Shown here: one piece after another, positions 38-14,903 of the stretch | How positions within the stretch are numbered: the stretch's first letter is position 1 | Layout: the number at the start of each line of letters is the position of its first letter | From: an uncultured Selenomonadales bacterium | GTDB lineage: Bacteria; Bacillota; Negativicutes; Selenomonadales; Selenomonadaceae | Length of the DNA: 15,137 nt | Direction: 5' to 3' | Assembly (NCBI GenBank): GCA_937901445.1 | Contig: CALDHY010000068.1 | Coordinates: 1-15,137 of the forward strand | The notes under the pieces: generated by a model | Told to the model about the DNA's origin: nothing | What the model saw: the letters and a program-made list of their open reading frames with translations, nothing else | Databases searched by the model: none | Translations under genes and position numbers: made by a program

Positions 38-3000
38 CTATTCCTTAGCAAATGTTAAAACGGGTTGCGAAAGTTCATTAACTTTTGTATCTTGAATTTC
101 AGTTACAGTAAATTTGCTGTCAACGATAGAATTTAAATTTGTATCGTCGGTAATGAAATTATTGTCTTCAAACAAATCTAAAACTTGTGAGCTGACGCTG
201 ATTTTATTATTGCTTTTGTCAACAAGAGTAACCGCGCTTGTATATTTTTCAAGGGTAATTGTGCCGCTTCCAATGGTAATAATTGTATTGCCGCTCGAAG
301 TTTTGACAGATTTAACGGTACCGCTTGTAACTTGAATTGTATCTTTTTTGTTAAAGCCGGTGATTAAGTCTTTGCCGTCGCCGCCCGCGTATTGGTAGAC
401 AACGCCGCTTGTACTGCTTGAGTTAATCGTGTCATTACCCGCGCCGCCAATAACGGTTACATTTTTGCTTTTATCGAGAGTAATTGTATCGTGCCCTGCG
501 CCGCCGTTTATGGTAACGGTTGCCGCGTAGTTTGTGATTGTATCGTTGCCGCCCAATCCCTTCAGTAAAATGTTGCTTGAAGTGTTTGAAAAAGTATCTG
601 CGTTTGCCGTGCCTTCCCAAATACCGCTGTAAACCGTGCTTGTTAAATTGCCGCTGCTGTTCAAAAAATTAATAGTTTTGCCCGCCGCGTCTTGCAATGT
701 TACAGAGCCGCTGCCAATATTGAAAGTTACGTCCATACCTTTAACATTGACAGTTTTTAATTTGCCGCTCGTAATTTGCAAAGTGTCGGTGGAGCCGTAA
801 CCAATTATTAAATCTTTGCCGCCGCCCGTTGCATATTCATAAACATTTTTCAAGCCGCTGTTGGTTATGGTGTCATTGCCTGCGCCGCCGTTTATCGTTG
901 AATTGCTTGCAAAGTTATCTATAGAATCATTGCCCGCGCCGCCGAATATCGAAGAATTAGCTCCCGTGTTGTAAATATAATCTTTGCCCGCGCCGCCGTC
1001 TACAGATACATTTTTTGCAAAGTTTTCAATAGTATCATTACCCGCGCCCGCGTCAACCAAGTAATTGGCGTCTTCATTCGTGAAACTTTCGGCTTTATCT
1101 GTCAGCACGTGTACATAGGGAACTTTCAACGTGCTTGTACTGCCCGCCGCGTCGCGCAGATTTATACTGCCGCCTACAATATCCTTGACAGTAACAGAGC
1201 CGCTTCCAATATTCAAAACTAAGTCGTTGCCGCTTATAACCGAACTTTTAATTGTGCCTTTTGTAATGTGCAAAGTGTCGCTTGTACCAAAACCTGAAAT
1301 AACGTCTTTGCCGTCGCCGGTTGCATAGTTGTAAATAATTTTATTGCCGCTGTTTGAAATTGTATCGTTGCCCAATCCTCCAACTATAGTAACCGTGTTT
1401 GCGGTATTTGTAATTGAATCGTGCCCGCTCAAGCCCTGCACTTCATATTCTTTTTCAGCATTTGTTAAAGTATCAGCCTTTGCCGTGCCCTGCAGGATTT
1501 TTGGAACTGTCAAGGTTGAAGATTTGCCCGTTGAATCAATCAGATTAATTTTACTGCCCTTTGCAATGTTTTTGAAAGTAACGGAGCCGCTCCCTATATT
1601 CAAAATAAAATCATTGCCGCTAACAATCGAACTTTTAACAGTGCCTTTTACAATCTGCAACGTATCAGTTGAATTGTAACCAATGATTGTATCTTTGCCG
1701 TCGCCGCTCGAATATTGGTACAGATTTTTTGTACCTTCATTAATGATTGAATCGTTGCCCGCGCCCGCAATAACTGTACAGGAATTGCCGCTGTTTGTAA
1801 TTTTATCTGCGCCGCCGTAACTTTCAATTTGGTAACTGTCTTCATCGTTAATTAAAGTATCTGCGCGACTCGTTCCTTGTACAAGGCGCGGTACTGTAAG
1901 TTTTGTAATGGTGTTATCTGCATTTACAACATTTACAACTGTATCCGCTTCAATGTCTTTCAAAGTGATACTGCCACTGCCAATATTCAAAATTAAATCA
2001 CTGCCGCTTACAACCGAACCGCTAAGACTGCCGCGCGTTATATTTATGATGTCGCCGTCATTAAAGCCCGTGATAACGTCCTTACCGTCCGAACTTGCAT
2101 ATTTATAAACTACATTCTGACCGGTATTAACTATTGAATCATTGCCCGTCCCGCCAATTATCGTTACGTCATCCGCGTAATTGTAAATTCTGTCATTCCC
2201 TGCAAACCCTTCAATCTGATAACCGTCCCTTGAATTGGCTAAAGAATCAGCCTTTGAAGTACCCTGCATTAACTTCCCTATCGTGATTGTTTCAACGTTG
2301 CCCTTTGTATCCATAATGTTTACTGTCGAATTGCCCGTAAGATTTTTAAATGTAACAGAGCCCGCTCCAATGTACAAAATAAAATCATTGCCCGTTGCAA
2401 GGCTGCTTTTTATTGTGCCGCGCGTTATCTGCAACGTGTCATAAGCCGTGAACCCAAAAATTGTATCATCGCCATCACCCGCCGCGTATTGATAAACCAC
2501 GCTTGAACCCGTGTTCACGATTGAATCATTGCCCGTGCCGCCAATTATCGTTACACTGCTTCCGCTGTTCGATATTTTATCACTGCCGCCGAGCCCGTAA
2601 ATCGTATATTCATCTTCAGCGTTGGTTAATGTGTCCACCCGCGCAGTCCCTTTTAATACATTCGCTTCGCCCGCACTTTCCAGCGTACCTTCAACCTTAA
2701 AATCTACTCCTACTGCACTTCGGAGCAAAATTGCATCGTCGCCAACTTTTATCTTGATATTTTCCCCGCTCGTCAAACTGGTATATTTCGCCCCCGTGAT
2801 TTTCAGAGTATCGCCCGCGCTTATTCCCGCTATGGTGTCGTTGTCTTCCCCGCCGTGGTATTCAATCAACGTTTTCTTGCCACTTGCCACTGAAATAAAA
2901 TCATCGCCCGCCCCGCCGTTTATCGTTACATTGGTGCCACTGCTGAAAATTGTATCTCGACTTTCGCCACCGCTGATTGAAATAGTATCGCCGCTGTTTT

Positions 3001-6000
3001 TAACCGAATCCGCGCCTTTGCCCGCAACTATCGTAACCTTTGAACCGCTGTTACTGATTCTATCGTTGCCGTCGCCCGCGTTTATAGAAATATTTGTTGA
3101 AGTGTTATAAATTGTGTCGTAGCCCGCCCCGCCAATGATTGTTACACTCAACGCAGTATTTGAAATGACATCATCGCCGTTGCCGCCGTTCAAAGTTGAG
3201 TTGGTGCCGTTGTTTTCGATTGTATCAGAGCCCGTGCCGCCGTCGATTGAAACACGGTTACCAATATTTGAAATAGAATCGTTACCGGCAAGAGCGGTAA
3301 TGACTGCGCCTGCGATTGTGTTAGTGATAGTATCCGCGCCCGCTGTACCAATTACAGTTTTTGACGCGCCGCCTTCAATCGTGCCGCCGATCGTGAAGCC
3401 TACGCCCGCGCCGTCTTTGATTAAAATTGTATTCTTGCCGACAGTTACAACTAAATCATCGCCGTTTTCCACTGTTGAAAAATTGGCATCAACAATTTGT
3501 AAACTGTCATTAGATTTAACGCCAAAAATAGTATCGTTGCCGCCGCCGCTTGAATATCTTATTAAAGCCGCACCGCTCCCTAAAGTAACAGAATTTGCCT
3601 TGCCGTTGCCCGTAAGAGTGATTGTGCCTTCATAGTTGGAGGCGTCGATATTCTGAACATCGCCGTATAGCCGCAAGTTGTCATTATCTTCATAATCTGT
3701 ACTTGTTAAATCGATTGAAACAGAATCTGCGCTAAAATCTTTCAGATTGACTGTAGCATTTGCGCCGCCAGCCCAATAATAATCAGCGGTGTTAGCAATT
3801 AACAGTTCATCGTAGCCGATCTGATAAGTTGTAGTTTCGCTTGAACTTTCAACACTTACAATATTTCCTACAGCATTTTCTAAAAATAAATTGCCGTCCG
3901 AAAGTTTCAAAGTTGCATTGCCCAAAGAATCAGCCGTTACTGAAGTTAAGCTTAACGAGCCGGTTGAAATTGTATCTTTATCAAAGTCAAAGTTAAAAAT
4001 ATAATCGTCGCCGTGATTCGCCGCAAATACAAAAACGTCTGCGCCCGATCCGCCGTACAAAGTATCGTTGCCCTTGCCGCCCGTTAAAGTGGAATTGCCA
4101 ATAGCGGCAGTGATAACGTTAGCTGAATCGTTGCCGGTAAGTTCAGCCGCGCCCTTGTAGTTTGTGGCGTCAATAACTTTTAAATCGCCGTTGAATCTTA
4201 AATTGTCTCTGTCTTGAAAGTTTGAATTGGTTAAATCTATCTTGACAGAATCGCCGCTGTAAGTTGCGCCGACTTCAACAGTAACATCTGCACCGCCCGC
4301 CCAATAATATTCAGCCGAATTATTGAGAGTCAGTTTATCGTTGCCGAATTGAACGCTAACAGGGTTATCAACATAATCATTTTCAATCAGGGCAGTTTTA
4401 TTAACGCCGTCTGCAAGCGTCAAAGTCCCTGCATTTCTTAAATCCAATACCACGTCAGAATCTTCAAGCGTCATACCGTCAACATAAAATCTTTCAGTTT
4501 GAATGACATCGGCGGTTGAATCAGTTCCGAATCTAAAATTTTTGACAGTATCATTTGAAGTTTTTGAAGTAGAAAAAATTGTGGCAGATTTATTTCTGGT
4601 AACGGAAAATTCAATGAGGTTATCGCCGTCGCCTGCGTCAATAGAATCGCCGCCGCCTGCAAGGATGGTATCATTCCCTTTGCCGGCAGTAATAGAAGCG
4701 GAATAATCGGCGGTGTTGAAATAATTACCTTTGATGATGAGGGCGTCAGAAATATTTGAGGCGTTGAGGGTGCCGCCGGTCGAATAAGTAAAGGCAACTT
4801 TAGAAAGGTTATTGGATTTATCATAGAAATTGGCGAAATTTGAAGTGGCGGAAGAAAGAGAATCGCCGTCGAAAATGACAGAGCCGAAATTTGAGATAGA
4901 GGCGGAGCCGTCGCCAAAAGAAATTGAACCGGTCTTAACGGCTTTTAAAATATTTGAAAGATTGGTTTGAACGCCTGCGCCGGAATAAAATTCATCGACG
5001 CCGTAATTAAGGAGAGTGATAGTGGAATTATTTAGGGGAGTGAATTTGGTAGGGGCGTTGTCATTGGTAAAAATGGAAATATCAGATTTGGTAACAATAT
5101 CATCTGCGGCGGTGCCCGCGTGAACGGTAAGGTTAGCGGCGGTATCGTCAACAACAAGGTTATCGCCGCCGGAGCCCAGAAAAATATTTTTATCGCCGGT
5201 GGCAGAGGAAATAACCGCAACAATATTATCGCCCGCGCTGTTCAAAGTAAGGTTTTGGTCGCCGCCCGCCAATGAAACGCGCTTTCTGTAGGAAGTGGAG
5301 CTGAAGTCATAATCAGCAGCGGTAGGATTGGTATTGTTCAAATAAAAAACTAAATTCAGATTGTAATTAACGTCTAAATCAAAAGTGGTAAGCGGGGACT
5401 TGGTATTGATATAGTTTAAAGGTTGTTGGGCAATATAATTAATGATAGTGTTAAGGTCGGAGTTAGAATTTATATCAAAGTCGGTTGAATCATAGGCGGA
5501 AATAACGCCGTCAGAATCGGCAAGGATAGTAGCCGCGCCGTCAACATTCAAAGTAACAGTTTCATCGTCATCATTGCTAACAATGTACGTACCGGCAGAA
5601 TCGACAATAAAAGTAGAATTGGGGCTAAGATATTTAATGGCGGTGGAAGTTTCATTTGGGATAATAATAACGCCGTCAGAATCGTTTGAAAGTTGGTAGG
5701 TGTGGTCGTTAATGTATAGGGTAGAATTGCCGCTCATAGAAATAGCCGCGCCGTCTAAATCGCCGTTTATAGTATCGCCGGTAGATAAGCCGTAAACATT
5801 ATAAATACCGTTGGAGCCGCCGTAAATAGAAATAGTATCGCCTGCGCTAACAACCTTATCAATGGCAACCGAATAACCGTTGACAGTTAAAGTTGCGTCG
5901 CCTTGTACATAAATTGCGCCGTCCAGATTATCAACAGCAGTAACTTTATTTTCAGTATCAGTTGAAAAAGTAACGCCGCCATCATCGCCGCTAACAGTGT

Positions 6001-7027
6001 AAGTACGACTGCCAATTCTGAACGCGCCGTTTTCATCAGTAACAAGTTCCATATTTGCAGGAACATTATTAACGGTTGTCCCGTCACTTAAGCCGCTCGC
6101 CTGCGTCGGTACGCCTTCATCATTCAACGTCAAAATATAATTGGTGTTAGTGCCTTCATTAATTGAAATAGCAGTGCCGTTGACAGTAATATTTTTGTCA
6201 GTAGCTCCAACGGTGGTATTGGCGGGCAAATTAAAAATGTACGTGTCAAAACCGGAAATACCCGTAATAACGCCGTTTTCGTCGGTTGAAATTGTAACAG
6301 CGTCATTAACGCCTATTGTTAATTCAGTGCCGTTGACAGAAAAAGCCAAGCCGTTTGAAGTAAAACTAATCGAGCCGATAAAATTTGTAACGCCGGTAAC
6401 TGCGCCTTCACTGTCAAATATAAAAGTTGCCGAATTTGTAACAGTGAAATTGCGGTTGCCAACGTTGAAAGTGCCTTCGCCGGTTGTAACAGAAACAATA
6501 TCATTTTCAACAGTAGCAGTAACTTCACCGCCGGTAACTTTGACAGCAACGCCGTTTATACTGACAGTATTTGAAAAATCGCCGGTAATGTTGCCGTCCA
6601 GATTATCAACACTTGTAATTGCGCCGTCAGTCAATCCGAAAGTAACGCCTGATTTATCGTCAACAGTAAAAGTTGTTGAATCGATAGTGAAAGTGCCGCT
6701 TGACGTAGTAACGATATTATTTGCACTGCCAAAATTAACAACGGTAACTTCATCGCCGTTGACGCCGCCAATTTCAGTTATACCGTCAGCAGTTGACGCC
6801 GTGACGCTGATTAAATTATTTTTATCGCCCGTAACTTTGACAGTTTCGCCGTTGACAGTCAAGCCGTTTTCAAAATCTGCGGTAATTGTGCCGTCCAAAT
6901 TATTAACGCCCGTAACGTTGCCGTCATCGTCAATATAAAAAACAACGCTTGAATCGCCCTCTATTTTATAAGTTTTGCCAAGAAAGGTAAAAGCCCCTTC
7001 AGCACTTGTTGTATATCTGGTTGCCAT
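38..7027 (-). CDS. Giant RTX-like beta-strand repeat protein, probably type I secreted
   Basis: A 2329-residue protein. The ATG at 7025-7027 has an AAAGGAG ribosome-binding site (7036-7042 on the complement). There is no N-terminal signal peptide (it begins MATRYTTSAEG). Residues 1 to about 510 are repeated beta-strand units built around motifs such as NLDGxITGDF and VNGxxVKVTG. Residues about 510-1220 are a mixed region with a duplicated YYWAGGA block (Trp909 and Trp1085). From about 1227 onward there are more than 20 GGxGxDxI-like nonapeptides, as in hemolysin-type calcium-binding (RTX) repeats, many inside 129-residue modules. The last 50 or so residues are acidic and hydrophobic (DLFEDNNFITDD), as expected of a C-terminal type I secretion signal. 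I saw only one Cys. Known for the family: RTX repeats bind calcium and fold outside the cell. Inferred: a secreted or surface-held adhesin or matrix protein. No transporter or accessory gene lies in the window, and the exact role is unknown. Confidence 0.9.
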   Translation of the reverse strand: MATRYTTSAEGAFTFLGKTYKIEGDSSVVFYIDDDGNVTGVNNLDGTITADFENGLTVNGETVKVTGDKNNLISVTASTADGITEIGGVNGDEVTVVNFGSANNIVTTSSGTFTIDSTTFTVDDKSGVTFGLTDGAITSVDNLDGNITGDFSNTVSINGVAVKVTGGEVTATVENDIVSVTTGEGTFNVGNRNFTVTNSATFIFDSEGAVTGVTNFIGSISFTSNGLAFSVNGTELTIGVNDAVTISTDENGVITGISGFDTYIFNLPANTTVGATDKNITVNGTAISINEGTNTNYILTLNDEGVPTQASGLSDGTTVNNVPANMELVTDENGAFRIGSRTYTVSGDDGGVTFSTDTENKVTAVDNLDGAIYVQGDATLTVNGYSVAIDKVVSAGDTISIYGGSNGIYNVYGLSTGDTINGDLDGAAISMSGNSTLYINDHTYQLSNDSDGVIIIPNETSTAIKYLSPNSTFIVDSAGTYIVSNDDDETVTLNVDGAATILADSDGVISAYDSTDFDINSNSDLNTIINYIAQQPLNYINTKSPLTTFDLDVNYNLNLVFYLNNTNPTAADYDFSSTSYRKRVSLAGGDQNLTLNSAGDNIVAVISSATGDKNIFLGSGGDNLVVDDTAANLTVHAGTAADDIVTKSDISIFTNDNAPTKFTPLNNSTITLLNYGVDEFYSGAGVQTNLSNILKAVKTGSISFGDGSASISNFGSVIFDGDSLSSATSNFANFYDKSNNLSKVAFTYSTGGTLNASNISDALIIKGNYFNTADYSASITAGKGNDTILAGGGDSIDAGDGDNLIEFSVTRNKSATIFSTSKTSNDTVKNFRFGTDSTADVIQTERFYVDGMTLEDSDVVLDLRNAGTLTLADGVNKTALIENDYVDNPVSVQFGNDKLTLNNSAEYYWAGGADVTVEVGATYSGDSVKIDLTNSNFQDRDNLRFNGDLKVIDATNYKGAAELTGNDSANVITAAIGNSTLTGGKGNDTLYGGSGADVFVFAANHGDDYIFNFDFDKDTISTGSLSLTSVTADSLGNATLKLSDGNLFLENAVGNIVSVESSSETTTYQIGYDELLIANTADYYWAGGANATVNLKDFSADSVSIDLTSTDYEDNDNLRLYGDVQNIDASNYEGTITLTGNGKANSVTLGSGAALIRYSSGGGNDTIFGVKSNDSLQIVDANFSTVENGDDLVVTVGKNTILIKDGAGVGFTIGGTIEGGASKTVIGTAGADTITNTIAGAVITALAGNDSISNIGNRVSIDGGTGSDTIENNGTNSTLNGGNGDDVISNTALSVTIIGGAGYDTIYNTSTNISINAGDGNDRISNSGSKVTIVAGKGADSVKNSGDTISISGGESRDTIFSSGTNVTINGGAGDDFISVASGKKTLIEYHGGEDNDTIAGISAGDTLKITGAKYTSLTSGENIKIKVGDDAILLRSAVGVDFKVEGTLESAGEANVLKGTARVDTLTNAEDEYTIYGLGGSDKISNSGSSVTIIGGTGNDSIVNTGSSVVYQYAAGDGDDTIFGFTAYDTLQITRGTIKSSLATGNDFILYIGAGSVTFKNLTGNSTVNIMDTKGNVETITIGKLMQGTSKADSLANSRDGYQIEGFAGNDRIYNYADDVTIIGGTGNDSIVNTGQNVVYKYASSDGKDVITGFNDGDIINITRGSLSGSVVSGSDLILNIGSGSITLKDIEADTVVNVVNADNTITKLTVPRLVQGTSRADTLINDEDSYQIESYGGADKITNSGNSCTVIAGAGNDSIINEGTKNLYQYSSGDGKDTIIGYNSTDTLQIVKGTVKSSIVSGNDFILNIGSGSVTFKNIAKGSKINLIDSTGKSSTLTVPKILQGTAKADTLTNAEKEYEVQGLSGHDSITNTANTVTIVGGLGNDTISNSGNKIIYNYATGDGKDVISGFGTSDTLHITKGTIKSSVISGNDLVLNIGSGSVTVKDIVGGSINLRDAAGSTSTLKVPYVHVLTDKAESFTNEDANYLVDAGAGNDTIENFAKNVSVDGGAGKDYIYNTGANSSIFGGAGNDSIDNFASNSTINGGAGNDTITNSGLKNVYEYATGGGKDLIIGYGSTDTLQITSGKLKTVNVKGMDVTFNIGSGSVTLQDAAGKTINFLNSSGNLTSTVYSGIWEGTANADTFSNTSSNILLKGLGGNDTITNYAATVTINGGAGHDTITLDKSKNVTVIGGAGNDTINSSSTSGVVYQYAGGDGKDLITGFNKKDTIQVTSGTVKSVKTSSGNTIITIGSGTITLEKYTSAVTLVDKSNNKISVSSQVLDLFEDNNFITDDTNLNSIVDSKFTVTEIQDTKVNELSQPVLTFAKE
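1106..2650 (-). repeat. Four tandem 129-residue RTX modules within the giant gene
   Basis: The motif GT(A/S)(K/R)(A/V)D opens modules at residues 1460, 1589, 1718 and 1847 (nucleotides 2650, 2263, 1876 and 1489). The spacing is exactly 387 nt each time. The next opening (LTDKAE) is at residue 1975, one residue short. Each module runs in the same order: GTxxAD, two RTX-like turns, a Y(x)YxxGDGKDxIxGF segment, an LxITxGxxKSS segment, then LNIGSGSVTxKD and a short hydrophobic end. A longer version (1975-2138, 164 residues, with extra RTX turns) and a final one (from 2139) follow. The regular spacing indicates growth by tandem duplication, and recombination between copies could change the length in register. 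Confidence 0.85.
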
Positions 7028-7111: not shown

Positions 7112-7483
7112 TTGAAAAAACTTTTGATACTGTTGCTGCTTTTGAATATAAATACTTGCGCGGCAGAGGATTTAAAATTTATAGATTCAAATGATGATTT
7201 CGGTTATTTTATCGACATTGACACAATAAAACTTGAGACTGAAAATATATTTAGAGTAAATATGGTAATAATCCGGCTGAACGTGAATGAAATGGACGTG
7301 GTAGACCTGCAGATAAATCACGCGGCGAAAACTTATACTATACTTTCAACGCGCACTCTTTCATATGACGAACGCACGGAAATAAAGGCAGATACAACGC
7401 GCCGCCCGCCGAAAAGTTATTCAGAAAAATCCTTAATGGGCGATATAGTTGACGTTGTAATTTACGGCGATTTTAGGGATTAG
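7112..7483 (+). CDS. Small exported protein, possibly surface-adhesin E-like
   Basis: A 123-residue protein starting at TTG (7112), with GGGAG at 7099-7103 eight bases upstream. Residues 1-18 are a signal peptide (MKK, a run of Leu, then T-C-A-A) with likely cleavage before Glu19, leaving a mature protein of about 105 residues. The mature part begins with an aromatic-rich strand pattern (FGYFIDIDTIKL) and later has AKTYTILSTRTLSYDE. This layout resembles the small beta-rich proteins of the surface-adhesin E type, where a Y-x-D-x-x-S/T-I segment is followed by a tyrosine-containing 'TYxILS' strand. That resemblance is from memory and weak; hypothetical exported protein is the safe name. It is divergent from the giant gene and 94 nt ahead of the LptD-like gene. 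Its last codons (FRD-stop) lie inside the heptamer repeat array, so the natural C-terminus may have been altered by the repeat. Confidence 0.8.
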   Translation: MKKLLILLLLLNINTCAAEDLKFIDSNDDFGYFIDIDTIKLETENIFRVNMVIIRLNVNEMDVVDLQINHAAKTYTILSTRTLSYDERTEIKADTTRRPPKSYSEKSLMGDIVDVVIYGDFRD

Positions 7484-7560
7484 GGATTAGGGATTAAGGA
7501 TTAGGGATTAGGGATTAAGAATTTTCCTTAACCCCTAGCCCTTAGCCCTTAACCCTTAAA
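7473..7560 (+). repeat. TTAGGGA heptamer array with inverted C-rich arm
   Basis: Seven units of TTAGGGA or close variants run with strict 7-nt spacing from 7473 to 7521. After a short spacer come five units of the complementary type (CCTTAAC, CCCTAGC, CCTTAGC, CCTTAAC, CCTTAAA) from 7526 to 7560. The two arms can form an imperfect hairpin; at its tip GGGATTAAG pairs with CTTAACCCC with one mismatch. The G-rich strand has five GGG runs and could also form a G-quadruplex. It fills almost the whole gap between two genes, starting in the last codons of the first and ending 6 nt before the ribosome-binding site of the second. Confidence 0.85.
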
Positions 7561-7577: not shown

Positions 7578-9107
7578 TTGAAAAAAATAATAATAGCGGC
7601 ACTATGTACGGTTGCACTGATGCCGCGCGCAGAGGCAGTATATGAATCAAAATCAGATACGGGCACTGAAATTTTCGACTACATAGAAAACCAACGCCGA
7701 GAAAAACGCGCCGCCGAACTTACGGACGAACAAAAAAAGTTGCAAGCTGATATTGAAGAAGCAATCGAACGCTTGCCGCGCCCAATAGTTGAAGGTGAGC
7801 CAATCCCCGCCGCGTTTGAAGGCGACGATTTAACCTACAACACCTTGACGGGCGAATTTACGGCAAAGGGGCACGTTGATATAATTCAGCTGGACGGGCA
7901 CCGCTTCCAAAGTGAATTCATTACCGGCAATTTAAACACTCAAGATATTAAAGTTAAAGGCAAGGCGCACGTTTTACAATTCGCTGAAAATGCTCCGCGC
8001 GTCAGCTTGGACGGCTACAACACGGTTTACAATTACGGCAGTAAAGTTGGTACAATGGACAACGTCAAGGGCAAGGCGGGCGAATATTACATTTCAGGGC
8101 GGCGTTTTGAATTTTACCCCGACCACATTGTAGCTTATGACGCTTACCAAACAAAGTGCGGCGCAAAAGACCCCGATTATAGAGTTAGTGCAGAGCGTAT
8201 GGAAATTTACCCCGAGCAAATTATCAGAATGTACGATATAAAACTCTGGATAGGAAACGTTGTAGTTGGTTCAAAAAAATACACCGAGCGCAAATTGGAA
8301 AATAATGAACAACCATACTTTCCGAGTGTAGGTTATAATTCTGCTAACGGTCTTTACATTGAAGATACTTTTGAATTTCCCGTAATTAACAATCATTTTA
8401 AATATTTAATAAACGCGCACATTGACACCAAAAACGGCGTCCGCAGTAATACCGAATTTCACTACAATAACCGCAACTTTATAACGCGGGCGTTGTACGG
8501 CTACTACTATGACAGCGACGGGCGGTGGATAAAAAAAGAACCTGGACTTGATTTATATTACAGCAAGCACTTTGACAATCTGCCAATGTCATACAGTTTT
8601 GAATATGAAATAGGCGATTGGAGCACTCAAAACATTGCAAGCACGCACCAAGAATTTGAAGCAGGCTTGTCACACGACCCAATTAATTTACCGAACAAAT
8701 TTACCCTGTTTCTGAATACCAGTTACAAAATTACAAAAGACGATGAAAAATCTCCCAATCGCAGTAAACAAACTGTTAAGGGTATGAATTACGGTATAAA
8801 ACTTTTCAAAGAATTTAATGACAAATTGGCGGCGTATGCAGGCTACGATTATACTAAAAATACTTCGCAAAATTCGCTTTATGAATTTGACACTGACAGC
8901 TATTCAAACAAATTTTCAACGGGCGTAAGTTATCGCTTGACAGAAAAGGATAGAATAGTAGCGGGCTTTAAGTTCGATACAAAGCGCGGCACTCTTGAGG
9001 ACGCCGATTATTATTGGTATCGTGATTTACATTGTTCAACGGCTATCATTCGTTGGCGTGCAAAACGTGATAAAATTGAGGCGCGTTGGCAATTTACCCC
9101 TTGGTAA
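7578..9107 (+). CDS. lptD: LptD/OstA-like outer-membrane LPS-assembly protein
   Basis: A 509-residue protein starting at TTG (7578), with a GGGGG stretch at 7566-7570 seven bases upstream. The signal peptide is residues 1-20, cleaved after A-E-A. A charged helix spans about 37-66. An OstA/LptA-like beta-jellyroll follows at about 75-165 (FEGDDLTYNTLTGEFTAKG, then repeated short strands). From about 215 to the end, alternating aromatic strands look like a beta-barrel. The protein ends in Trp509, matching the C-terminal aromatic signal for barrel insertion, and the last section has YRDLHCS, like the RxLHC segment near the end of LptD proteins. The mature protein has only two cysteines, Cys194 and Cys486. 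Known role of the family: inserting LPS into the outer leaflet with LptE. It is much shorter than proteobacterial LptD (about 780 residues). It could instead be a paralogous OstA-family barrel protein rather than the main LptD. Confidence 0.82.
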   Translation: MKKIIIAALCTVALMPRAEAVYESKSDTGTEIFDYIENQRREKRAAELTDEQKKLQADIEEAIERLPRPIVEGEPIPAAFEGDDLTYNTLTGEFTAKGHVDIIQLDGHRFQSEFITGNLNTQDIKVKGKAHVLQFAENAPRVSLDGYNTVYNYGSKVGTMDNVKGKAGEYYISGRRFEFYPDHIVAYDAYQTKCGAKDPDYRVSAERMEIYPEQIIRMYDIKLWIGNVVVGSKKYTERKLENNEQPYFPSVGYNSANGLYIEDTFEFPVINNHFKYLINAHIDTKNGVRSNTEFHYNNRNFITRALYGYYYDSDGRWIKKEPGLDLYYSKHFDNLPMSYSFEYEIGDWSTQNIASTHQEFEAGLSHDPINLPNKFTLFLNTSYKITKDDEKSPNRSKQTVKGMNYGIKLFKEFNDKLAAYAGYDYTKNTSQNSLYEFDTDSYSNKFSTGVSYRLTEKDRIVAGFKFDTKRGTLEDADYYWYRDLHCSTAIIRWRAKRDKIEARWQFTPW

Positions 9108-9145
9108 TTTAGGGGATAGGATTTAGGGATTAGGGGTTAGGGATA
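9106..9145 (+). repeat. Second TTAGGGA-type repeat array
   Basis: This array fills most of the gap between the LptD-like gene and argJ. It contains TTTAGGGGA, TTTAGGGATTAGGGG and TTAGGGA variants, starting on the stop codon of the upstream gene and ending about 10 nt before the argJ ribosome-binding site. G runs of three or four lie at 9112-9115, 9126-9128, 9133-9136 and 9140-9142, so a G-quadruplex is possible in the RNA. Unlike the first array it lacks a C-rich partner arm. It is clearly the same family as the arrays at 7473 and 10384. Confidence 0.75.
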
Positions 9146-10384: not shown

Positions 10385-10450
10385 TTTAGGGATTAAGGAC
10401 TAAGGATTAAGGGCTAGGGGATTCATTTTTTCTAGCCCTTAAGTTTTTTT
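10384..10450 (+). terminator. Repeat-derived hairpin with T-run between argJ and argB
   Basis: The gap opens with another TTAGGGA-family stretch (TTTAGGGATTAAGGACTAAGG). A perfect 11-bp inverted repeat follows: TTAAGGGCTAG (10407-10417) and CTAGCCCTTAA (10432-10442), with a 14-nt T-rich loop and then seven T (10444-10450). This has the form of an intrinsic terminator or attenuator, but the argB ribosome-binding site starts only a few bases later. It probably gives partial termination or 3'-end protection rather than a full stop. No promoter is evident between it and argB. Confidence 0.6.
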
Positions 10451-10467: not shown

Positions 10468-11532
10468 ATGTTAAGTGAAGAAGAATTAAAAACCGAATTG
10501 GCGCGGCAAGTACTTAGCCGCTTTTTCTCCAATGAAAAATCTTTTGAAGAAAATTTAAAAGCCGCACAATTTGACGCAGGATTTTTAAAAAAATTAGCGA
10601 ATGAACTTTCAGCGGAAGTTGAAAGTGAAAGTGAAAGTGAATCCCCTTTCGGGGATAAAGATAAAGATAAAGCTGAAGTTCTGGTTGAGGCTTTACCTTA
10701 TATTCAAGAGTTTTACGGTAAGACAGTAGTTGTTAAGTATGGCGGTAACGCAATGGTTAATGACGAACTGAAAGAAAAAGTTATGCAGGATATAGCGTTA
10801 ATGAAGTATACCGGAATTAACGTTGTAATTGTGCACGGCGGCGGACCCGAAATAACCCAATTTCTTAAAAAAGTCGGTAAGGAAACTTCATTTGTAAGCG
10901 GCTTAAGAGTTACAGATGAAGAAACAGTTGAAATTGTAGAAATGGTTTTAGCCGGTAAAGTTAATTCAGAAATTGTAATGTTACTGAATCGGCGCGGCGT
11001 TCGTGCAGTTGGAATAAGCGGCAAAGATGCAGATTTAATTCACGCCGAAAAAAAACTTGCCACTGTTTACGAACAGGGCGAAAAAACTAAAGTTGATATT
11101 GGTTACGTCGGCAAAACTAAAAAAATTGATATTCGTATTGTCGAAGATTTAATTAAAAGCGGCTATGTACCGGTCATTGCGCCAATAGGCGTTGGTGAGG
11201 ACGGCGAAAGTTACAACATCAATGCAGATTATGTGGCGGCGGATATTGCGGGCGCGTTGAAGGCTGAAAAACTTTTACTTTTGACTGATACTGAAGGCGT
11301 ATACAAAAATTTTGAAGATAAAAGCAGTTTCATTTCAACTTTAAGCGCGGCTGAAGCTCGCCAATACATTAAAGACGGCGTCATAGCGGGCGGAATGATA
11401 CCGAAAGTTGAGGCGTGTTTACGAGCGTTGCAGGGCGGCGCAGGCAAAGCGCACATTATCGACGGCAGACTCCCGCACTCAATTATTTTGGAACTTTTCA
11501 CGGCGTCCGGTATTGGTACGCAAGTTGAATAA
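10468..11532 (+). CDS. argB: Acetylglutamate kinase ArgB with an unusual N-terminal extension
   Basis: A 354-residue protein; ATG with GGAGGG at 10454-10459. ArgB phosphorylates N-acetylglutamate using ATP, the second step of arginine synthesis. The kinase part begins at about residue 69 (AEVLVEALPYIQEFYGKT), which is where ordinary ArgB proteins start. It carries VVKYGGNAM (Lys90), VHGGGPEI (122-129), SGLRVTDEE (144-152), NINADYVA (250-257), TDTEGVY (from 273) and the GGMIPKVEA and HSIILELFT segments. The EALPYI helix ahead of the core and the SGLRVT motif are typical of arginine-inhibited hexameric kinases, so feedback control by arginine is expected. Residues 1-47 form an extra predicted-helical segment of no family I recognise, joined by an acidic Ser-Glu/Lys-Asp linker (50-68). 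No in-frame ATG, GTG or TTG lies at the junction, so the extension is translated. Confidence 0.95.
   Translation: MLSEEELKTELARQVLSRFFSNEKSFEENLKAAQFDAGFLKKLANELSAEVESESESESPFGDKDKDKAEVLVEALPYIQEFYGKTVVVKYGGNAMVNDELKEKVMQDIALMKYTGINVVIVHGGGPEITQFLKKVGKETSFVSGLRVTDEETVEIVEMVLAGKVNSEIVMLLNRRGVRAVGISGKDADLIHAEKKLATVYEQGEKTKVDIGYVGKTKKIDIRIVEDLIKSGYVPVIAPIGVGEDGESYNINADYVAADIAGALKAEKLLLLTDTEGVYKNFEDKSSFISTLSAAEARQYIKDGVIAGGMIPKVEACLRALQGGAGKAHIIDGRLPHSIILELFTASGIGTQVE
10621..10671 (+). repeat. Hexanucleotide repeats and mini-hairpin in the argB linker
   Basis: (GAAAGT)x3 at 10621-10638, then a perfect inverted repeat ATCCCC/GGGGAT with loop TTTC (10641-10656), then (GATAAA)x3 at 10654-10671. They encode the Ser-Glu and Asp-Lys runs joining the extra N-terminal segment to the kinase. 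Six-base units change length without shifting the frame. Confidence 0.85.
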
Positions 11533-11552
11533 TTTTTAAACTAAAAAATTTT

Positions 11553-11585
11553 AAGACTGTATCGAAATTGATACAGTCTTTTTTT
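11553..11585 (+). terminator. Intrinsic terminator after argB
   Basis: A perfect 11-bp stem, AAGACTGTATC (11553-11563) with GATACAGTCTT (11570-11580), a 6-nt loop, and a run of seven T (11579-11585). It lies 20 nt after the argB stop and separates the arginine genes from the zinc-ribbon operon. Confidence 0.95.
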
Positions 11586-11593
11586 ATTATATC

Positions 11594-11629
11594 TTGACAA
11601 ATGACACGCGGGGGGGGGTATATTATACA
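11594..11629 (+). promoter_or_regulatory. Promoter with a G9 tract in its spacer
   Basis: A perfect TTGACA (11594-11599) is followed by an uninterrupted run of nine G (11610-11618) and then an overlapping set of -10-like hexamers: TATATT (11619-11624, 19-bp spacer), TATTAT (11621-11626, 21 bp) and TATACA (11624-11629). An alternative -35, ATGACA (11601-11606), would give 17 bp to TATACA. In every pairing the G-run is in the spacer. It sits directly after the argB terminator and 47 nt before the mini-ORF, so it should drive the whole 11676-14903 set. Loss of two G would set the TTGACA/TATATT spacer to 17 bp. Confidence 0.7.
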
Positions 11630-11675
11630 CAAAAATTTTAATATGTAAAGTATTTTTTTATTGGGAGGAATTTTT

Positions 11676-11732
11676 ATGCACGAAAATTTTTATTTGTGTC
11701 ATCGTTGCGGAAATGTTTTTGTCATATGGTAA
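11676..11732 (+). CDS. 18-codon mini-ORF with CxxCGN motif; desulfoferrodoxin-like remnant or leader peptide
   Basis: It encodes MHENFYLCHRCGNVFVIW from an ATG with GGGAGG (11663-11668) upstream, so it has full translation signals despite its size. The pattern F-Y-x-C-x-x-C-G-N is the usual opening of the desulforedoxin-type iron site in desulfoferrodoxin and superoxide reductase proteins (family knowledge); the second Cys pair and the rest are absent. No continuation is visible in other frames before the next gene. The stop codon TAA overlaps the AAGGAGGGG ribosome-binding site of the next gene, whose ATG comes 12 nt later, so translation may be coupled. It could also be a duplicated, shortened zinc-ribbon start, since the next gene opens with MKFCHNCGT. 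Whether the peptide is functional is unknown. Confidence 0.5.
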   Translation: MHENFYLCHRCGNVFVIW

Positions 11733-11744
11733 GGAGGGGATTTT

Positions 11745-12995
11745 ATGAAATTTTGTCACAACTGCGGTACAAAGTTGGACGACGCGGAAACATTTTGCCA
11801 CGAATGCGGCGTGAAAGTTGCTGAAGAAAATCCCGTTGCAACCGTAGAAAATACCCCGCCGCAATATAATTCTACAACTAATACCGATAAAAAATTTTAT
11901 CAGAATCCGGCAATTATTATTGGCGCAATTATTTTATTGGCGTGCGGTGTTTTTATTTTCAACTCTAAACAAAATGCGCCGGTTTCCGGCAAAAACGATA
12001 CTTATTACATCGACGTTGCTGACAGGCACATAGATAAAGGCGATTATCGCAGTGCAATTACCGCCTTTCAAAAAGCGATTGAACTTAATCCCAAAAATGA
12101 AGCCGCTTATTTTGGACTCGGTTATTGCTACAATCAATTAGCAGATTATCAAAACGCAATAAAATTTTATAAAAAATATATCGAGCTGGATTCCGGATAT
12201 GACGCCGCCTATAACAATTTGGGAAATGCTTACAGGGCTTTAAATGATTATCCAACTGCCTTTACAAACTATCAAAAAGCTCTTGCGCTGAATCCGAATA
12301 ACGCTACGGTTAATTTTAGCTTAGGTTGTTATTACAGCGAATTAAACGACCACTACAACGCAATTAATTTTTTTCTGAAAGCGATTGAACTTAATCCTCA
12401 AAATGACGTTGCCTATTATAATTGCGGCAATTCTTATTTAGAACTTGGCGATTATGAGGGTGCAATTTTTATGTATAACAAATCGGTTGAAGTGAATCCG
12501 CAAAATTCGCAAGCCTATTACAATATGGCGGTTGCTTATGAACGATTGGAACGTTACGACGATGAATTAAAATATTTGAACAAGGCTATTGAATTGGAGC
12601 CGAACAATGAATTTTACCGTACAACGCGCGAAAATGTTTTATATTATTTTTTTAATTCGCAAGGCAACGGGGCACAGTCAGCACTTGAACAATATTACAA
12701 TTTTATAGCGTCAGCTAATCCGCGCGCCGCTTTTGATATGCTTTCTTACGATATGCAAAATTATATGAACGGATTGGATAATTTTTCAAAAGGTCACGCC
12801 AATGTAAGTTTAAATAGACTTTCAAATGTCAAAACAATTTCTTCAAGCGGCAATTCGGCAGTATTGGAATATCGCCTTGATTCAAATTGCTGGGAACACG
12901 GGCGGGATGTTAGCCGCGCTTTTCAAGGAACTGCCACTTTGCAGAAAATTGATAACCGCTGGATTATAACTGATTTAAGAGTTAATGCGCTGTAA
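11745..12995 (+). CDS. Zinc-ribbon, single-pass membrane TPR protein with C-terminal NTF2-like domain
   Basis: A 416-residue protein; ATG with AAGGAGGGG (11731-11739). Domains in order: a four-Cys zinc ribbon (Cys4-x2-Cys7, Cys18-x2-Cys21), a Pro/Thr/Asn-rich linker, one membrane segment at about 55-72 (NPAIIIGAIILLACGVFIF), six consecutive 34-residue TPR repeats at about 84-287 (recurring AIELNPxN and YxxLGxxYxxLxDY), and a C-terminal segment from about 309 (ALEQYYNFIASANPRAAFDML to WIITDLRVNAL) with the look of an NTF2-like or SnoaL-type small alpha/beta domain. Likely topology: zinc ribbon in the cytoplasm, TPR and C-terminal domains outside the membrane. TPRs bind partner proteins, so a scaffold for the exported products of this operon is a reasonable inference. 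The next gene starts 13 nt after the stop. No specific function is recognised. Confidence 0.9.
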   Translation: MKFCHNCGTKLDDAETFCHECGVKVAEENPVATVENTPPQYNSTTNTDKKFYQNPAIIIGAIILLACGVFIFNSKQNAPVSGKNDTYYIDVADRHIDKGDYRSAITAFQKAIELNPKNEAAYFGLGYCYNQLADYQNAIKFYKKYIELDSGYDAAYNNLGNAYRALNDYPTAFTNYQKALALNPNNATVNFSLGCYYSELNDHYNAINFFLKAIELNPQNDVAYYNCGNSYLELGDYEGAIFMYNKSVEVNPQNSQAYYNMAVAYERLERYDDELKYLNKAIELEPNNEFYRTTRENVLYYFFNSQGNGAQSALEQYYNFIASANPRAAFDMLSYDMQNYMNGLDNFSKGHANVSLNRLSNVKTISSSGNSAVLEYRLDSNCWEHGRDVSRAFQGTATLQKIDNRWIITDLRVNAL

Positions 12996-13008
12996 GGAGG
13001 CAATTTTT

Positions 13009-13830
13009 ATGAGTAAATTTTGTAGCGAATGTGGCGCACGATTAAAAGTTGGTGCAAAGTTTTGCAGTGCGTGCGGTCATAAAGTTGTTACTGAACTCGC
13101 GCAGGACTCGCCGCCGCCAAAATCTATACAGGAAATTTACGCTGAAAAAAAAGCAGCAAATACACCGCCCGCGCCTATGCCTTATGAAAAACCTAAAACC
13201 GTTCAAGAAATTTTTGCTGAAAGAAAGGCAGCAAATACACCGCCCGCGCCTATGCCTTATGAAAAATCTAAAACTGTGCAGGAAATTTACGCCGAAAGAA
13301 AAGCGGCAACTACGCCGCCGCAAAATTACAATCAAAATTATCAAAATCAAACTTACGGCGGCTGGTGGTATGAAACTTTCTTGCGCAAGGATGGGCGGTT
13401 AAATCGCCTGCGCTTTTTCAAGAGGACTATTCTTTCAAGTTGTATTGGCTTAGTCCCTTATATAATTATTTTTATTGTTTTAAATTTGAATCCTGAAAAT
13501 ATTAATCATACGGCGATGCTTGGAATTTTATACACGGCGTTTGTTGCCTATCTGGATTACGGCTTGATTGTGCGTCGCAGTCACGATTTAAGCCGCGATG
13601 TGTATTGGTACAAATATATTAAAGATGACGAAGAATTTTTAGCTAAAGTAAATACAGGAATGCAAGCATTGAGAATTTTGGCGTTGTTTTACGAAATGGC
13701 AACTTATACCAATTTGCCGTATCAGATATATTTTATTTGCGATATTGTAGTTTACGGCTTATGGTTCGCTAAGGGCGAAGTTGGAACAAATGAATTTGGT
13801 ACAGACCCGCTTGAAAGGCGTTATTATTAA
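13009..13830 (+). CDS. Zinc-ribbon DUF805 multi-pass membrane protein
   Basis: A 273-residue protein. I chose the ATG at 13009 because GGAGG (12996-13000) lies eight bases upstream. An earlier in-frame ATG at 12985 overlaps the preceding gene and has no ribosome-binding site. Domains: a zinc ribbon (Cys5, Cys8, Cys19, Cys22); a 25-residue tandem repeat at 38-104 with core VQEIYAERKAANTPPAP; a Gln/Asn/Tyr linker; then a DUF805-type membrane domain at about 119-268, with GRLNRLRFF at its start, RRSHDLSRDVYWY in the middle (compare the family's RRLHDxGRSGWW) and GTNEFGTDPL at its end. About three or four membrane segments are visible. DUF805 has no established function. The zinc ribbon matches the one in the upstream gene, suggesting the two act in the same complex. 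Confidence 0.9.
   Translation: MSKFCSECGARLKVGAKFCSACGHKVVTELAQDSPPPKSIQEIYAEKKAANTPPAPMPYEKPKTVQEIFAERKAANTPPAPMPYEKSKTVQEIYAERKAATTPPQNYNQNYQNQTYGGWWYETFLRKDGRLNRLRFFKRTILSSCIGLVPYIIIFIVLNLNPENINHTAMLGILYTAFVAYLDYGLIVRRSHDLSRDVYWYKYIKDDEEFLAKVNTGMQALRILALFYEMATYTNLPYQIYFICDIVVYGLWFAKGEVGTNEFGTDPLERRYY
13120..13320 (+). repeat. 75-bp tandem repeat coding a Pro-rich linker
   Basis: Two full 75-bp units (13120-13194, 13195-13269) and a partial third (13270-13320) encode K(S/T)(I/V)QEI(Y/F)AE(K/R)KAANTPPAPMPYEK(P/S). A stretch of about 39 nt starting GCAGCAAATACACCG is identical at 13153 and 13228. The third unit ends after TTPP. High identity implies recent duplication. Confidence 0.9.
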
Positions 13831-13843
13831 GGAGGTTTTTATT

Positions 13844-14377
13844 ATGTTGAAGAAAATTTTATTGGGCGTTGTAATTTTTTTATTTGCGGCAAATGTTAGG
13901 GTGTCCGCCGCCGCGCTGATTAATTCTGATGTTGAAAATGTCATTGAAGGTATTCGCCGCGTCAGCAGTCAATTCAATATCAGCATTTGGGGCAAGGAAT
14001 ATTACACCTATCAAGGCGCGCGTCGTTGCGAATTGCACTGGGGCAATAGTCAAAATAATTTAATTCGTTTCCGGCTCGGCAACAATAACGAAGTTCAACG
14101 TGCGCTTGTTTCTTATCCTGCCGATGGAAGCTATGATAATTTAAAGACGAATATGGAAGGCGGCTTAATGTATGCCTCTATATTGATGATGGCGGGCGTA
14201 ACTCAAAATGACATTGATAATTTCGGCAGAGAATTTTATCAAGATATTATGGCAGACCCTTACTCTTCATATTTCCACAAAAAATACACCGTTTGGAGTT
14301 CGCAAGCTCAACGAAATATTTTTGTCGACGTTGAATATAAAAATACTCGCGCAGATTTTTATATGTATGCAGATTGA
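13844..14377 (+). CDS. Exported protein of unknown function
   Basis: A 177-residue protein. The ATG at 13844 is chosen because GGAGG (13831-13835) is eight bases upstream and a signal peptide starts right there (MLKK, then a hydrophobic run, VRVSA). Longer in-frame starts overlap the DUF805 gene and would bury the signal. Cleavage is likely after Ala22 or Ala24. The mature part, about 155 residues, has one Cys (in RRCELHW), a strand-rich middle (LIRFRLGNNNEVQRALVSY) and a helical part containing a Met-rich segment (MEGGLMYASILMMAGV). I do not recognise a family. It lies 13 nt after the DUF805 gene, so it is almost certainly co-transcribed. It could be the exported client or partner of the TPR protein. 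Confidence 0.85.
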   Translation: MLKKILLGVVIFLFAANVRVSAAALINSDVENVIEGIRRVSSQFNISIWGKEYYTYQGARRCELHWGNSQNNLIRFRLGNNNEVQRALVSYPADGSYDNLKTNMEGGLMYASILMMAGVTQNDIDNFGREFYQDIMADPYSSYFHKKYTVWSSQAQRNIFVDVEYKNTRADFYMYAD

Positions 14378-14417: not shown

Positions 14418-14903
14418 ATGCCACGATTTGAAATTGACACTGACAGCGGCACGGTAAAAAAAATTGAAGAAGACAGCGGCGGTTGTCTGACAATCTTTAT
14501 TATACTTTTAATCATCGGATATCTTTTTGGCGATGGCGCAGAAGATAAAATTGACTATTGGAAGGGCGATAAAAACTGTCCAATTTTTGTACAGCGTGAT
14601 GACGGCTCAATGGTAGTTTTCAAGAAAGATTCGGCGCGGGAAGTTGACAGATACTATTCCAACGGCGATAAATTGATTGTTTTTCAAGGCTACGAAGTGG
14701 AGCCGGACGGCTATTTTAAAATGTACGGCTATTATGGCGTTTTCTACAATAAATCTGATAAATTTTACGAAGTTATTTATCCGCAGACGGGGAATTTTCC
14801 GAGCGGGCAAAGATTCACGCTAAAAAATTCCTATCAAATAAATGTTTGCAAAGTAATGATAAATTCGGCGTCAAATTATGACAAATTGAAATTGGATAAG
14901 TAG
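14418..14903 (+). CDS. Single-pass membrane protein of unknown function
   Basis: A 161-residue protein; ATG with GGAGG (14404-14408) nine bases upstream. A short N-terminal tail (1-22, mixed charge) precedes one membrane segment at about 23-38 (CLTIFIILLIIGYLFG). An ectodomain of about 120 residues follows, rich in Tyr, Asp and Lys, with strand-like pieces (CPIFVQRDDGSMVVFKKD, DKLIVFQGYEVEPDG, YFKMYGYYGVFYNKSD). Cys54 and Cys144 could form a disulfide if the domain is outside. No family is recognised. It is the last gene of the probable operon, 40 nt after the exported protein and 35 nt before a terminator. Confidence 0.85.
   Translation: MPRFEIDTDSGTVKKIEEDSGGCLTIFIILLIIGYLFGDGAEDKIDYWKGDKNCPIFVQRDDGSMVVFKKDSAREVDRYYSNGDKLIVFQGYEVEPDGYFKMYGYYGVFYNKSDKFYEVIYPQTGNFPSGQRFTLKNSYQINVCKVMINSASNYDKLKLDK

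Follow-up and report, generated by a model that had tools for sequence, protein, structure and literature searches.

A candidate slippage-prone poly-G promoter of a zinc-ribbon/TPR operon and its counterparts in Selenomonadaceae

In Haemophilus influenzae, the promoter spacer of the divergent hif genes contains a dinucleotide repeat, (TA)n. In the available parts of two papers on Neisseria, homopolymers are described between the -10 and -35 elements of porA, fetA and opc, and the tract lengths of fetA and porA vary between strains (PMC2791445, PMC5320596). The accessible text on Helicobacter canadensis reports several poly-G tracts, located in predicted promoters as well as within genes, including a glycosyl transferase, and gives tract-length ranges taken from sequence reads (PMC2823697). 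For the lineage considered here, a search of the openly licensed literature, mostly by title and beginning of the abstract, returned no paper on simple-repeat phase variation, and a term search of the Quinella genome paper (PMC9585023) gave no match for homopolymer, promoter or adhesin.

We analyzed a window of 15,137 nucleotides, that is, the whole stretch of DNA presented above, in which a promoter-like element lies between argB and a group of genes starting with a zinc-ribbon/TPR gene. The element and its neighbors are the following:

10468..11532, + strand: gene for acetylglutamate kinase (Pfam AA_kinase, 1.7e-54), upstream of the element, which we take to be argB from our knowledge of the family
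11553..11580, + strand: intrinsic terminator of argB, a 12-pair stem followed by a T tract, terminator-like in both directions
11594-11599, + strand: -35 hexamer TTGACA, perfect, by direct reading
11600-11609, + strand: non-G part of the spacer (N10), AATGACACGC, by direct reading; among the flush sites of relatives, N10 is the most frequent length
11610-11618, + strand: G9 tract, flush with the -10, the proposed length-variable element, from direct reading and class statistics in relatives
11619-11624, + strand: -10 hexamer TATATT, 5 of 6 positions, by direct reading
11676..11732, + strand: 18-codon ORF MHENFYLCHRCGNVFVIW, a possible leader peptide with a good ribosome site (GGGAGGA, direct reading), whose CxxC stretch presumably resembles the start of a desulforedoxin domain
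11745..12995, + strand: first main gene, 416 aa, with an N-terminal zinc ribbon, a hydrophobic segment and a TPR array (Pfam zinc ribbon and TPRs)
12985..13830, + strand: zinc-ribbon and DUF805 protein (ZnR-DUF805; Pfam), 281 aa as listed, overlapping the preceding gene
13841..14377, + strand: protein with a hydrophobic N-terminus and no Pfam match, likely in the same operon, judging from spacing
14418..14903, + strand: small protein with a hydrophobic segment and no Pfam match, likely in the same operon, also judging from spacing

The sequence-only reading had described a G9 tract in an A+T-rich intergenic region between a perfect TTGACA and a -10, with a spacer of 19 bp. This anatomy was confirmed: the gap between argB and the zinc-ribbon gene has 212 bases with 28% G+C, and the distance from TTGACA to TATATT is 19 bp by direct reading. 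The window promoter has a simple repeat between its -35 and -10, one of the features that define the porA/fetA type. Apart from the G9, the window contains no G or C run of at least 6, and a first-order estimate for the window predicts 0.005 runs of G9 or longer and 0.015 of C9 or longer. For a stretch of intergenic size, the expectation for G9 or longer is 7e-5 at window frequencies and 0.03 when calculated from the dinucleotides of the intergenic region itself, the G9 being included in them. In 772 kb, corresponding to the window and 80 argB loci, we counted five G or C runs of at least 9, the window's G9 among them. TTGACA occurs 28 times in the window against 7.4 expected, so the hexamer alone is not rare here; 27 of the 28 copies lie inside listed ORFs. 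The window gave no Rfam match.

Alternative -10 hexamers had also been proposed for this promoter. By hand count, TATTAT and TATACA stand 21 and 24 bp from TTGACA, beyond pairing distance. TATACA is, however, separated by 17 bp from ATGACA (11601-11606), with which it forms a weaker pair that likewise has the G9 in its spacer. An invertible promoter was considered and rejected, as flanking inverted repeats are absent and positions 11400-11800 hold short AT-rich arms and the terminator stem only. Other repeats are present in the surroundings: three of the gaps between genes in the window (7473-7559, 9107-9144 and 10390-10416) contain arrays of TTAGGGA-type heptamers, which occur on either strand, and hexamer arrays of TGAAAG and GATAAA occupy 10620-10672 within the 5' part of argB, which is unaligned in many of the 80 listed argB relatives.

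We looked at the conservation of this locus in other genomes. Among the 80 argB loci that were kept, those matching best belong to uncultured Selenomonadaceae, many of them ruminant-derived according to their titles. The closest of these by identity (L056, 97% over residues 73-354) has different genes 3' of argB, with neither the zinc-ribbon operon nor its promoter found there, so that this locus offered no orthologous promoter for comparison. Below the window's own entry, the search with the zinc-ribbon/TPR protein returned apparently generic TPR proteins among the best 120 of 2591 matches. The ZnR-DUF805 protein found distant relatives, the best by E-value being 39% identical over residues 4-207 of 281, with shorter zinc-ribbon stretches reaching up to 61% identity, and none of 16 fetched loci carrying ZnR-DUF805 relatives contained a G run of at least 7. 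One locus reached via the poly-G search (L128, in G041) combines a promoter with G9 and 19 bp with two genes, one lipoprotein-like and the other encoding a ZnR-DUF805 protein 23% identical to that of the window. The position of the operon is not conserved.

The promoter configuration itself recurs in relatives. Searching TTGACA-N-G(7+)-TATNNT in the 189 genomes of the family to which the L056 genome belongs gave 79 sites in 37 genomes, leaving 152 genomes without such a site, while the reversed pattern was found in none of the 189. The version with a C run gave 7 sites in 6 of these 189 genomes, and its reverse 2 matches in one genome. As poly-G sites far outnumber C-run sites (79 versus 7; binomial p about 1e-16), the Gs are placed on the sense strand. 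An earlier, looser search (TTGACA-N-G7+-N-TAT) had detected the element in 32 of 99 relatives and the reversed pattern in 3 of 99 (4 matches), these three relatives being outside the 189-genome family set. With GGGGGGGTATAMT, which requires no -35, matches were obtained in 22 of 62 relatives and reversed matches in 3 of 62; of the 9 of these sites that were read on the + strand, a perfect TTGACA stands 17 or 19 bp away in 6 and is lacking at these distances in 3. A similar pattern is present in 9 stretches of IMG/VR, which were of no use as a source of strain variants. The element also occurs in 4 of 20 genomes reached through named loci, including Quinella sp. 2Q5, and is absent from the genomes of Selenomonas ruminantium (2), Mitsuokella (2), two other Selenomonas, Megamonas, Propionispira, Pectinatus (2), Sporomusa (2) and Quinella sp. 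1Q5. Since sites within clades are related, the 79 sites do not represent 79 independent origins, and some of them, with spacers of 11-13 or more than 22 bp, may not be promoters.

Other kinds of repeats were observed in promoter-like spacers of these genomes. Two sites of G040 (C36:31274-31304 and C38:19927-19958) are similar promoter-like sequences with C9 and C10 in the spacer, corresponding to an opposite-strand version of the tract. The element shares with hif a simple repeat inside the promoter spacer. In G037, G023, G020 and G050, as well as in G033 and G004, there are also spacers between TTGACA and TATAAT that consist of poly-T or (TA)n and vary in length; these are possibly further types of promoter-spacer repeats, or chance occurrences in AT-rich DNA.

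The spacers of the 79 sites follow a clear geometry when the tract touches the -10. Of the 79 tracts, 45 directly adjoin the -10 (flush sites), and 26 of these 45 have a spacer of 19 bp (N10+G9 in 18, N9+G10 in 6 and N11+G8 in 2), the N10+G9 of the window being the commonest flush form; spacers of the non-flush sites are spread over 12-27 bp. Among other TTGACA-N-TATAAT matches listed for five relatives, 61 of 129 have 17 bp and 7 of 129 have 19 bp (Fisher p about 7e-13 for the 19-bp preference of the flush poly-G sites). For this comparison set, ten genomes gave 341 matches, 150 of which were listed; the listed ones come from five genomes, one of them covered partly, and include matches inside genes. 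Setting aside 13 matches that had T or TA repeats and 8 that had poly-G leaves 129. When N and G were shuffled among the 40 flush sites with N of 7-11, a mean of 13.6 sites fell at 19 bp against 26 observed, and none of 20,000 shuffles reached 26. Therefore, the total of the spacer is held rather than the number of Gs. The correlation between N and G is not clear over all 79 sites (Spearman -0.14, p 0.23) and is negative in the 66 sites with totals of 15-21 bp (Spearman -0.39, p 0.001).

These results do not support the earlier claim that G7, giving 17 bp, would be optimal, as the flush class in relatives peaks at 19 bp with N and G compensating each other. Lengths scattering around the ordinary 17-bp optimum were an expectation of the sequence-only reading and not a strict defining feature of the porA/fetA type, and the flush class centers instead on 19 bp. 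Considering that the flush class favors this length, G9 is probably the usual state of the class, working or poised, and not obviously two bases off an optimum. The 19-bp spacer may be a working state helped by the geometry of the G tract, or a poised low state. Moreover, the 19-bp mode (26/45) is tighter than the free drift of a hypermutable tract, and selection must therefore be invoked.

Such regularity raises the question of whether the promoter has a fixed architecture and is not a switch, the G-rich half-spacer flush with the -10 being a stable structural element whose length is held. G-C tracts tend to adopt an A-like geometry with a shorter rise, and a 19-bp spacer with a G tract could place the -35 and the -10 as a 17-bp spacer does. 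The flush peak at 19 bp, compared to 17 bp in the other listed matches, and the compensation between N and G are in agreement with this explanation, as are two interrupted G-rich spacers (G037:C282 and G006:C8) that also total 19 bp. On the contrary, the non-flush spacers vary over 12-27 bp, and 19 bp is not special to poly-G, since the perfect TTGACA-N19-TATAAT has 79 matches in 37 genomes, 18 of them with G7 or more by hand count (8 matches for the reversed pattern). By considering also the differences in tract length between close pairs and the frame of the in-gene tracts presented below, we judge a fixed architecture unlikely.

Tract length was compared between promoters that are otherwise alike. 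Four promoters of G162, TTGACAAAGCTTC-Gn-TGATATACT, have n = 8, 9, 9 and 10, with identical sequences on both sides of the tract, starting at TTGACA on one side and extending through TATACT on the other, and lead similar large proteins. In G152, 8 of 9 sites share a similar upstream sequence with tracts from G7 to G12; an RTX-like ORF follows 6 of those 8, and the remaining two, whose tracts are G10 and G12 and whose flanks are 97% alike, are close to contig ends. Three orthologous AAA-ATPase promoters with a common 5' leader have G8, G9 and G11, and 22 of 30 loci of AAA-ATPase homologues have no G run of at least 6 in the 170 bp upstream, so the tract has been gained and lost. When two sites were paired if their flanks reached 85% likeness, tract length differed in 16 of 20 pairs and was the same in 4 of 20, some members being shared between pairs. 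Less similar pairs were dropped, since the flank measure is a gap-tolerant alignment that inflates their likeness; of the 411 pairs listed in total, 330 have tracts of unequal length. G9 is common to three glycosyltransferase promoters (L132, L134 and L161, flanks 86-87% alike). Tracts of the same kind occur inside genes: the glycosyltransferase-like L251-L254 contain an internal poly-G at the same position, which leaves two in frame and two out of frame.

Length therefore differs between alike promoters, paralogues and orthologues, in the relatives; the locus of the window has no close counterpart, and the comparison is between promoters of relatives, with one genome per species. We consider these differences as indirect signs of slippage. 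Judging from the available parts of the Neisseria papers, the promoters described here resemble those of porA, fetA and opc by the homopolymer between -35 and -10 and by the surface-protein genes, but they belong to a different phylum, their tract often touches the -10, and the flush class is centered on 19 bp; in Neisseria the length variation is between strains, whereas here it comes from the sequences of different promoters and genomes. As in the accessible text on Helicobacter canadensis, multiple poly-G tracts per genome are both promoter-associated and in-gene, although the promoter tracts there are longer (G13-G16) and a fixed -35/-10 geometry was not found in that text (PMC2823697).

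To describe the genes controlled by these promoters, we used 80 different sites from the fetched loci, counting that of the window; this set and the 79 sites have members in common but are not identical. An ORF of at least 50 aa led by a ribosome site is present within about 250 bp in 68 of the 80; 24 sites lead an RTX-like repeat protein, 44 other ORFs and 12 none qualifying, in a rough classification where the RTX-like call is a motif count of our own making. In six examples, Pfam identified a D12 DNA methylase, a radical SAM protein, a flagellin, a clostripain and a glycosyltransferase 2, one example being without match. The class often leads surface or exported-type genes, but genes encoding an AAA ATPase and a radical SAM protein are also served, and the link with the surface is therefore a tendency. 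The window itself contains, at 38-7027 on the minus strand, a gene for a 2329-codon RTX-repeat protein (Pfam HemolysinCabind, 2.5e-07). In relatives, genes of this broad type often follow a poly-G promoter; there is no G tract in the stretch upstream of the window's gene. In Quinella sp. 2Q5 (G035), a D12-class DNA adenine methylase gene (L112:1501-2394, Pfam 1.4e-67) is directly preceded by a G9, 19-bp poly-G promoter, which makes it a candidate for a phase-variable methylome (phasevarion).

On the opposite strand of the window, a promoter-like TTTACA-16-TATAAT (11649-11622, minus strand) faces the argB terminator. The tract might then act other than by spacing, either as a protein- or structure-specific G element or through this opposite-strand site, from which transcription would begin close to the tract on its C side. 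The site scores 11/12 and the -10 region is nearly symmetric, but the opposite-strand transcript would extend for only some tens of bases before meeting the terminator-like stem (11580-11553), and the recurring partners of the tract in relatives are a TTGACA and a TATAAT-like hexamer on the G strand, even if the searches required them; we therefore regard such a role as very improbable. Finally, homopolymers are error-prone, the locus comes from a single window and most family genomes (152/189) have no such site, yet a neutral homopolymer placed by chance beside a promoter, or an assembly artefact, was already disfavored because of the recurrence of the same geometry at 79 sites with none in the reversed pattern, to which the strand bias and the 0.005 runs expected in the window can be added, and we attach hardly any credence to it.

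In conclusion, we consider it likely, on the grounds of sequence comparison, that the element is a sigma-70-type promoter of the zinc-ribbon/TPR operon with a slippage-prone poly-G in its spacer, able to switch the expression of the operon. The assignment to the length-variable promoters of the porA/fetA kind is well supported as a class. Concerning the original proposal of a phase-variable switch, the recurrent and sense-strand-biased class, together with the lengths differing between alike copies, speaks in its favor, but the operon and its promoter are missing after argB in L056 and the 16 loci with ZnR-DUF805 relatives have no comparable G run. According to the mechanism we propose, slippage of DNA polymerase would change the number of Gs, and a changed number would alter the distance and the facing of the -35 and the -10. 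This altered placement would tune transcription, resulting in cell-to-cell differences in the zinc-ribbon/TPR operon. With G9 as the probable usual state, single-base changes would shift the output away from it.

More tentatively, and as an extension that may well prove too broad, ruminant-associated Selenomonadaceae could possess a poly-G promoter family, dispersed and with a geometry of its own (TTGACA-N10-G9-TATAAT, 19 bp), whose long spacer is made workable by the tract itself. Slippage by single bases would then serve as a rheostat for large RTX-like surface proteins, glycosyltransferases, flagellin and the D12 methylase of Quinella sp. 2Q5. The preference for 19 bp is a physical question about RNA polymerase. 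If the rheostat reading is true, the control of the D12 adenine methylase in Quinella sp. 2Q5 would make a phase-variable methylome. Should the length of the tract prove variable within populations, this gut lineage, most of it uncultured, would diversify its surface by hypermutable promoters, as pathogens do, and phage, protozoa or host factors may drive such diversification.
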